Shown here in pieces: positions 29,250 through 52,764 of a stretch of 64,000 bases of DNA. Each line of letters opens with the position of its first letter. The first letter of the stretch is position 1. Both the position numbers and the translations under genes were made by a program. The notes under the pieces are model-generated. The model saw only the letters and a list, made by a program, of their open reading frames with translations, was not told the DNA's origin and did not search any database. Origin of the DNA: Anthocerotibacter panamensis C109 (GTDB lineage: Bacteria > Cyanobacteriota > Cyanobacteriia > Gloeobacterales > Anthocerotibacteraceae); the NCBI RefSeq assembly GCF_018389385.1, contig NZ_CP062698.1, positions 3,938,667 through 4,002,666 on the forward strand. Reading direction: 5' to 3'.

Positions 29250-29460
29250 CAAGAAATAACCTGAGCCCAGTTATTGACATCCTCCCGCCGCTAAGCCTTG
29301 CGACTATAGCTATGCCTCCAGGCGGGCTATGGGATTCCCTAACATCACTGATTAGGGTTTCTGCTTCAACGGGAGCGCAACCGCTTTACCCTAAGCTTGC
29401 GCTATAGGGTGGGCCTTCTCGCCAAGCCAAAAAGGTAAAACAGCCTCGGGTTATTTCTTG
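29250..29460. mobile_element. IS200/IS605-type right-end remnant bounded by 16-base inverted repeats
   Basis: CAAGAAATAACCTGAG (29250-29265) matches the inverse of 29445-29460 at 15 of 16 positions. Inside, ATTGACATCCTCC begins at about 29272 and the block GGGATTCC ... CACTGATTAGGGTTTCTG follows; the same order occurs in the element at 52,086. On the minus strand this reads as a right end finishing GGAGGATGTCAAT, the pattern of IS605-group elements whose right end encodes an omega-RNA scaffold. No transposase is present. The rest of the 29,183-29,531 gap holds nothing I can identify. Confidence 0.5.
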
Positions 29461-51443: not shown

Positions 51444-51580
51444 TTTCCCTCTCAGACTGAGTGGTTTGTTTTTGACGCTTCTTCGCCCCAAGTTGCCGCA
51501 TACTTGCGCATTTGGTAGAGCTTGACGACTCTGCCCCTGGGAGCTACCTGGGGGCTTTGTTTTGCACTCATGAGGTATGT

Positions 51581-51690
51581 GTGAAGTACCAATCTCTATC
51601 GCGCTCCGCGTTTGACCTCAAAGCTCACCTCGTTCTCGTCACCAAGTACCGCCGCAAAGTCATCACTCCCAAGATGCTAGAGCGGATGGG
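51581..51690 (+). pseudogene. tnpA: tnpA (Y1 transposase) N-terminal fragment
   Basis: From the GTG at 51581 the frame reads KYQSLSRSAFDLKAHLVLVT, then KYRRKVITPKMLERM, the N-terminus of IS200-type Y1 transposases. Only about 37 residues remain; the HUH motif and catalytic tyrosine are deleted. The frame then runs into out-of-frame tnpB DNA. Confidence 0.8.
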
Positions 51691-51704
51691 GTCAATTCCT
51701 GTCA

Positions 51705-52004
51705 ATTCTTGCTGTCAAAGCTGCAAATGCTGGACGGATGACGATAGCAGTGAATCCAAACGGCACAAGTCAAGAGTGTTCTAGTTGTGGCACACACGTT
51801 CCAAAGACTTTAGCCGACAGGTGGCATAGCTGCCCTAGCTGTGGACTGAGTCTTGACCGTGACCACAATGCAGCCCTGAACATCAAACAGCGGGCTGTGA
51901 ACAGCCCGCTAAAGGCGGTGGGTCATCCCGTCTCTGCTAGGGGAGGCTTCCAGGATGCTGGGCCGTTGAACCTAGAAGCCCGCCCTATACCGCTTTGCGG
52001 TTAG
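51705..52004 (+). pseudogene. tnpB: tnpB C-terminal fragment with zinc finger
   Basis: The frame from 51705 reads ILAVKAANAGRMTIAVNP, then the zinc finger CSSCG ... CPSCG, then the RuvC-III segment LDRDHNAALNIK, as at the end of IS605-family TnpB nucleases. About 100 residues remain. The RuvC-I and RuvC-II parts are absent, so it is inactive. A frame from ATG 51738 remains open but is not a functional gene. Confidence 0.8.
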
Positions 52005-52136
52005 GGACGGGAGTATGTCACACAGAGAGGTGCTTTATGCCCTGCTCAAGGAGACTAATCAAGCAGCCTAATTGACAGGGCTATCAATTGACATCCTCAC
52101 CTGGCTGAAGCCATGGTGATTCCTAAACCTCACGAT

Positions 52137-52161
52137 ATGGCCTGCGGCCACGCAGGGCTAT
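52137..52161. repeat. 25-bp palindromic repeat, copy 1
   Basis: The unit starts ATGGCCTGCGGCC and ends ACGCAGGGCTAT; its core CCTGCG-GCCA-CGCAGG is a perfect hairpin. An identical copy lies 167 bp downstream. At this position it interrupts the sequence CACGAT / TAGGTTTCTG, which is continuous in the related copy at 29,346-29,363 (CACTGATTAGGGTTTCTG). Confidence 0.8.
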
Positions 52162-52303
52162 TAGGTTTCTGTTTCCTTCCATTGCTGGGGTTGCTTACGC
52201 ACGCCCCAATGGGTCTACGCAACTGCCTCCACTCTCTAGGAGTTTTTTGGTCTTATGTTCGCTCCACAGACTTCAAGCTTTAACCCGCTTTCCCGGATGC
52301 CCC

Positions 52304-52328
52304 ATGGCCTGCGGCCACGCAGGGCTAT
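52304..52328. repeat. 25-bp palindromic repeat, copy 2
   Basis: Identical over 25 bases to 52137-52161, in the same orientation, flanked by GGATGCCCC on the left and CGGTATGGG on the right. The flanks of the two copies differ, so the unit itself is what is repeated. Confidence 0.8.
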
Positions 52329-52434
52329 CGGTATGGGTCGGGGCAGACTTGGTTATCGTCCACCCCGCATTCAAGTTATCGCGCTCACACGGCTTTGTAA
52401 AGCCGTCCTAGAAGGACGGGGTCTTATACCCATT

Positions 52435-52764
52435 TCACTCAAATAAAGGAAGCATCGCACGGTGGAACTGGTTTCCCTTGCGCCGTACCCCGGCTCCAAG
52501 CTTCTCTTTGCCCGTGTTGAGCACCAGGGGGACAAGCCGGTCATAGATCTGAGTGGTCACTTTGCGAGGGGTGCTCTGGAGCAGATTGGGTTGTCGGACC
52601 AGGGCTTTCCAGGCGGCAATCCTGATGTACTGGCTCAGTTCGTCCGCCTCCAGGTGCCCGCGCAGATGCCCGAAATAGTTGATGCGGCCATAGATCTGCC
52701 GTACCACCTCAGGGGTAAGCAACTGTAGGATCTGCTGGTTCAACCGGTGCTCCTGTTCGGTCAT
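52435..52764 (-). pseudogene. sigma-like protein, paralogue B, truncated by the solo IS element
   Basis: The 109-residue frame matches the first 95 residues of the protein at 50,630-51,253 (LLTPEVVRQIYGRINYFG, HLEADELSQYIRIAAWKAL, LVLNTGKEKLGAGVRRKG), then stops where the IS605-type element begins. The paralogue is about twice as long, so the C-terminal half is probably lost. It lies 27 bp after the replication protein gene and would be co-expressed with it. The remaining part could still be a small active protein. Confidence 0.55.

Follow-up and report, generated by a model that had tools for sequence, protein, structure and literature searches.

Two identical stretches of 25 bases, at 52137-52161 and 52304-52328, lie on the + strand of the 64,000 nucleotides of Anthocerotibacter panamensis DNA analysed here (the window), in the same orientation and 167 bp apart, and we think, with a probability of about 0.88, that they are two copies of a mobile hairpin, dispersed and non-autonomous. 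The preliminary description of this DNA had reported the same repeat, which the sequence bears out, and had taken the unit to be 25 bp long; its size has to be corrected, since the insert has 24 nt and the final T already belongs to the target, as the first base of TYR. The 16-nt core gives two matches in the window with up to two mismatches, against 0.07 expected by shuffling. Unit A, the inserted bulged hairpin ATGGCCTGCGGCCACGCAGGGCTA, occupies 52137..52160 (+), with a T on its left at 52136 and the right-hand target bases TTA (consensus TYR) at 52161..52163 (+). Unit B is the identical 24-nt unit at 52304..52327 (+), with a C on its left at 52303 and the right-hand target bases TCG at 52328..52330 (+). 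Both are seeds of the covariance model described below, which they match with 45.8 and 43.4 bits, respectively. That the 24-nt hairpin is a mobile unit at all we regard as still closer to certain.

The search for relatives of the unit was extended to the whole genome, a single contig of 4,187,797 bases (C1; 4.19 Mb), and further copies were found outside the window. With up to one mismatch allowed, the core 16-mer matches C1 at five places and its reversed control at none, and a looser pattern brought out more copies. A covariance model built from nine own-genome copies (the seeds) gives 16 matches in this genome at E 0.01 or better. Eleven of them reach 35 bits or more and are the nine seeds plus the two units of a second copy of the host element, a small number that speaks against a mobile hairpin; two weaker matches lie near 25 bits and three at 17-20 bits, the latter left uncounted. 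Among the 59 genomes searched, 22 (own included) have some match at E 0.01 or better, and matches of 33 bits or more occur only in the own genome (G000) and in a relative of the same family, Candidatus Cyanaurora vandensis LV9 (G001), with seven matches at 33-43 bits and four at 17-18; all others stay at or below 24.9 bits. The same-order genomes G003-G006 have matches near 18 bits, and G041 has 12, among them a related but distinct tandem hairpin. In a collection of 84,980 species, a pattern scan, which misses 23-nt copies, returned seven stretches, five from Cyanaurora and two lone ones, in an Acidobacteriota MAG and an Actinomycetaceae MAG. The unit pattern had no match in viral contigs; a shorter 21-nt pattern matched one viral contig (L238). 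As for replichore strand bias, the origin and terminus could not be located because of noise in the GC skew of the fetched loci. Our literature search found no description of this 24-nt hairpin family.

The inserted unit has the consensus ATGGCCTNCGGCCACGNNGGCCTA and is 23 nt long in some copies. It folds as a bulged hairpin in which 91.6% of the cells are standard pairs over 17 aligned copies. The covariation score is 0.194 versus a shuffled mean of 0.103, and none of 500 shuffles, which ignore relatedness, reaches it. Base changes on both sides occur in two pairs, and columns 11 and 20 (U-G, G-C, C-G) carry most of the signal. Because one pair dominates and related sequences can exceed shuffles, the alignment supports selection on the hairpin fold without proving it. 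By inspection, at least five of the six frames of the unit are free of stop codons, and its bottom strand reads YRA^TAG-hairpin-CAT^R.

The unit enters between Y and TYR without target duplication at 14 sites, in two genomes of one family. These independent sites are 11 own and 3 of Cyanaurora, copies of one host being counted once, and at 14/14 the unit is preceded by Y and followed by TYR (Y^TYR); the model includes flank columns, which govern the finding of 2676834, 581743 and the Cyanaurora copies, and the nine seeds were found without the right flank. The empty copies already contain TYR, so TYR is the target and nothing is duplicated. Eleven of the 14 sites are in or right beside IS genes, with a chance of 4e-6 if IS were 20% of the genome, which is an assumed share; this enrichment may reflect tolerance of insertion. 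The Pfam domains at the sites are those of TnpB, Transposase_mut, DDE_3 and DDE_Tnp_1, the last matched in two parts (26.2 bits in front and 22.4 at the back, with a cut-off of 23). The unit at 871092 begins 4 nt past the stop codon of a DDE_3 gene, and at one Cyanaurora site an IS3-like tail was judged by eye. The reading frame is kept because 24 nt make eight codons. Four units (3031758, 737816, 99320 and 100372) encode YGLRPRxPI (or xSI), and other units use other frames.

The comparison of occupied and empty sites defines the ends of the insert. In the DDE_Tnp_1 gene at C1:100358, AGCCAAT is followed by the 24 nt and by TCGCTTAC; a truncated paralogue on the same chromosome, at C1:763215, reads AGCCAATTCGCTTAC, and the flanking blocks of the two are identical at 73/74 and 153/154 positions (226/228 bases). 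Twenty of the 26 protein matches that span this unit show a gap of eight residues, lying no more than three residues from the insert (13/18 distinct sequences), and the remaining six are remote, with 34-35% identity. For the second identical unit of this gene, at 99306, the 8-residue gap is present in 17/17 spanning matches (10/10 distinct). When genome contigs were scanned for homologues of the DDE gene, 50 candidate stretches emerged, none of which was confirmed. The TnpB of 396 aa at C1:3031755 contains GYPN-YGLRPRKPI-KKNARSVEYK, versus GYPQF-KKNTRSVEYK in Cyanaurora copies. Here, 22 of 33 spanning matches have the 8-residue gap, six of them plus a nearby gap of one or two residues. Among the other 11, eight are remote matches gapped in other ways (28-35% identity), one shows a gap of nine residues in a shifted position, and two are a single place in G036 with a different 8-residue insertion close by. 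The predicted structure of this TnpB (mean pLDDT 72, pTM 0.48) puts the insert in a low-confidence loop, residues 99-111 with pLDDT below 50, which fits tolerance of the insert and proves nothing.

For the TnpB-like fragment at 737802, which alone gives no Pfam match, a paralogue in the own genome is without the eight residues, and for the TnpB at 335825 the paralogue used for 737802 shows a 24-nt gap. A Mutator-type transposase of Cyanaurora has a same-order homologue in G004 without the eight residues, and two more Cyanaurora elements are present as occupied and empty copies within one MAG, with inserts of 24 nt and 23 nt. No homologue spanning the site was found for unit B or for the units at 871092, 1762912 and 581743. 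At the Uma2 site, 2676834, two homologues are without 20 residues, not eight.

Other small insertions and palindromes were observed in these genes. The G036 insertion mentioned above, in the TnpB of locus L158, comes from another lineage and adds eight codons, VALAVRST, at almost the same point of TnpB as the 24-nt unit. Cyanaurora has a second palindrome, GGGGTCCGGTACCGGACCCC plus one base, of 21 nt (L117 near 2015-2035, L116 near 386-406 and L235:495-510), which in L117 and L116 lies in the same TnpB 3' ends, whereas two sibling copies are without it. The core of this palindrome is present in 6/235 fetched loci, some being one place.

Across the 11 own sites, identity between units is limited to two pairs, which are exactly the two pairs less than 2 kb apart: the window pair (167 bp) and the DDE pair (1052 bp), each in one orientation. 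The other sites are single. If identity and linkage were unrelated, the chance of this coincidence would be 1/1485, with only two pairs to judge from. Identical units linked in one element suggest short-range copying, by which units would spread within the element. Elhai et al. are said to have proposed in 2008 RNA intermediates for similar units of Nostoc. Spread of the whole family via an RNA copy, or via template switching at replication forks with a nearby unit as donor, draws its support from these linked pairs; we think that it is less likely than transfer by an enzyme, to which the exact ends and the Y^TYR target at the tested sites point (23 nt in one Cyanaurora group), though it is the strongest of the alternatives.

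As for the enzyme, a folded single strand of the unit might be moved in trans by an HUH/Y1 enzyme of the IS200/IS605 type. Insertion of IS200/IS605 elements proceeds without duplication and at a short target. We propose such single-strand transfer at somewhat less than even odds because it would be expected to give precise ends without a duplication and to involve a short target and a bulged hairpin. The own genome offers two candidates. One is a complete IS200-type TnpA at C1:4011357, whose stop codon is followed, after 17 nt, by a 21-nt relative of the unit, a neighbourhood that is suggestive only as a hint to the enzyme. The other is a solitary RAYT-like Y1 gene, C1:2643027-2643680 (L038:1045-1695), which holds a different internal palindrome, GGGTAATGCATTCGC..GCGGATGCATTACCC. 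In Cyanaurora, whose assembly is a fragmented MAG (93% complete), no RAYT was recognised and two partial Y1 matches lie at contig edges, one with YIQNQ (IS200 type) and one untyped. Neither candidate of the own genome nor the Cyanaurora Y1 matches could be tied to the 24-nt unit.

The shorter relative, ATGGCTNCGCCACGCNGGCTA, is 21 nt long, again a length divisible by three, except in L124 (22 nt), and occurs at C1:3506721-3506747 (-), at C1:4011751-4011771 (+) and in L089, L110 and L124. The Y^TYR target is present at both own copies. The own copy at the IS200-type gene follows the complete TnpA, and in G041 the relative is in tandem with another hairpin.

The preliminary description had expected a REP-like repeat moved by a RayT transposase, an expectation that the data do not sustain. 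REPs are palindromes of 20-40 bp, dispersed and in some cases within genes, and most are sorted by GTAG or CGTC tags, according to an excerpt of one account (PMC3733652). The 24-nt unit is likewise a short dispersed palindrome with some copies inside genes, its hairpin is bulged, ATAG precedes the stem on the bottom strand, and the own genome has a solitary RAYT-like Y1 gene. However, the GTAG/CGTC tag is absent, the TAG of the bottom strand following an A that derives from the target. In the portion consulted of another paper, inverted doublets are the mobile unit of REPINs and single REPs are expected to be immobile (PMC3116915); the units found here are single or direct and never form inverted doublets, and their copy number is low. 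No linked RAYT was found: the locus of the sole RAYT-like gene (L038) has no match to the model of the 24-nt unit, and Cyanaurora has only its two partial Y1 matches. A standard REP or REPIN mobilised by RAYT (TnpA-REP) thus appears improbable, and it was rejected as the driver since the sole RAYT-like gene has an unrelated palindrome. That palindrome resembles REPs inserted into tnpA-REP genes of a subclass that is plentiful in Cyanobacteria, as far as these are presented in an extract of PMC6006769.

Both window units belong to a 356-bp mini-element of the IS200/IS605 type at 52085..52440 (-), which on the minus strand consists of a vestigial TnpB tail and the right end of an IS200/IS605-type TnpB element. 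The terminal hairpin of its right end (CACCTGG..CCATGGTG) was recognised from sequence and fold at 52098..52118 (-), and a hairpin at the opposite end (CCGTCCTAGAAGGACGG) from the sequence at 52403..52419 (-), in a stretch that matches other genomes. Parts of the host, mainly its two ends, have matches in 19 of the 59 searched genomes (own included). The window also contains a chimeric remnant (51574-52004) in which the start of an IS200-type TnpA is fused to the end of a TnpB and whose own right end lies just ahead of the element. The second copy of the host, C1:4043448-4043803, has two mismatches and carries both units, one with a changed base; the insertions of units A and B therefore predate the duplication of the host.

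The presence of both units in both host copies, and the fact that such ends normally have hairpins, would also agree with hairpins inherent to the end of the element, for example as part of a guide-RNA scaffold. We consider this very improbable, since homologous ends in five other genomes are without unit A and related units lie in unrelated transposase genes. The reading of the empty site of unit A covered six of the loci that match the host. Five of these six aligned relatives (G015, G046, G034, G026 and G005) span the site without the 24 nt, their ends reading CACGAC-TTAGG, CACGAC-TTAAG, CACGAT-CTAAG, CGCGAT-CTAGG and CACGAT-TTGGA where the window has CACGAT, the 24 nt and TTAGG; the sixth (G025) was aligned elsewhere, yet it reads CACGATTTAG in a local match. 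For unit A, these empty homologues led us to reject an inherent IS end. According to the predicted fold, unit A splits a hairpin, and its excision restores a perfect 8-bp stem like that of the related IS605-type right-end remnant at 29272-29400, whose corresponding hairpin (29337..29357, -) is without the unit. The preliminary description had offered this remnant, at 29346-29363, as the empty site; it does lack the unit, but it is a diverged homologue only, and the IS ends of the five genomes serve better. Its broader proposal, that a very small palindromic unit has been inserted, is supported by these ends and by the occupied and empty pair on the same chromosome. It had also allowed that the unit might be found nowhere else and be inherent in all IS ends; relatives do occur elsewhere, and homologous ends are without it. 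Chance hairpins or an assembly artefact, which the shortness of the units and the fragmented Cyanaurora MAG might suggest, are excluded for practical purposes by the occupied and empty pair within the one contig that forms the own genome, by the control (0 reversed versus 5) and by the target common to 14/14 sites.

The mobile hairpin can be placed beside several known small repeats. In Nostoc and its relatives, the SDR units of Elhai et al. (2008) reportedly have about 21-27 nt, form hairpins with compensatory changes, are dispersed, often lie inside mini-transposons and were judged mobile. To our knowledge, SDRs are confined to one cyanobacterial subgroup, and the way in which such Nostoc units, about two dozen bases long, move has been an open question from their first description onwards. 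Set beside this description, the 24-nt unit is alike in size, in its hairpin with changes on both sides (two pairs), in its dispersal and in having occupied and empty sites that speak for mobility, and, by analogy, it would work like the Nostoc SDRs; in contrast, its hosts belong to another, deep-branching order. MITEs and PATEs of IS200/IS605 are non-autonomous. The unit shares this property, and its 356-bp host is itself of such a kind, but the unit shows neither transposon ends nor a target duplication, and no parent of it was found. The SDR work of 2008 is cited in PMC4390886 and PMC2884548, of which excerpts were consulted, and the excerpt of the former states that one SDR family splits the octamer HIP1 after its third base, whereas the target of our unit is Y^TYR. 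Rickettsia palindromic elements also enter genes without shifting the frame and contribute residues to the encoded proteins, as described in a part of PMC10969869; these elements have about 150 bp and a conserved encoded peptide, whereas the present unit is six times shorter, mostly enters transposase genes and encodes the YGLRPRxPI/xSI peptide in four units, with other frames elsewhere.

In our opinion, few pieces of DNA that have been seen to move are as small as this hairpin of 24 nt, whose host chromosome is that of a deep-branching cyanobacterium. Since a single chromosome provides the insert with its exact ends and its target, together with an empty site of almost the same sequence, the mechanism becomes testable. 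By lengthening transposases by eight residues, among them a TnpB of 396 aa that is otherwise complete, the unit indicates that very small DNA can reshape proteins. A more far-reaching and rather doubtful view is that the 24 nt act as an eight-codon cassette, with exact entry at Y^TYR, conservation of the frame in TnpB, DDE and Mutator genes, short-range copying and a route that is neither RAYT/REPIN nor that of a known IS. If that were true, transposons may carry hyper-parasites of 24 bases.
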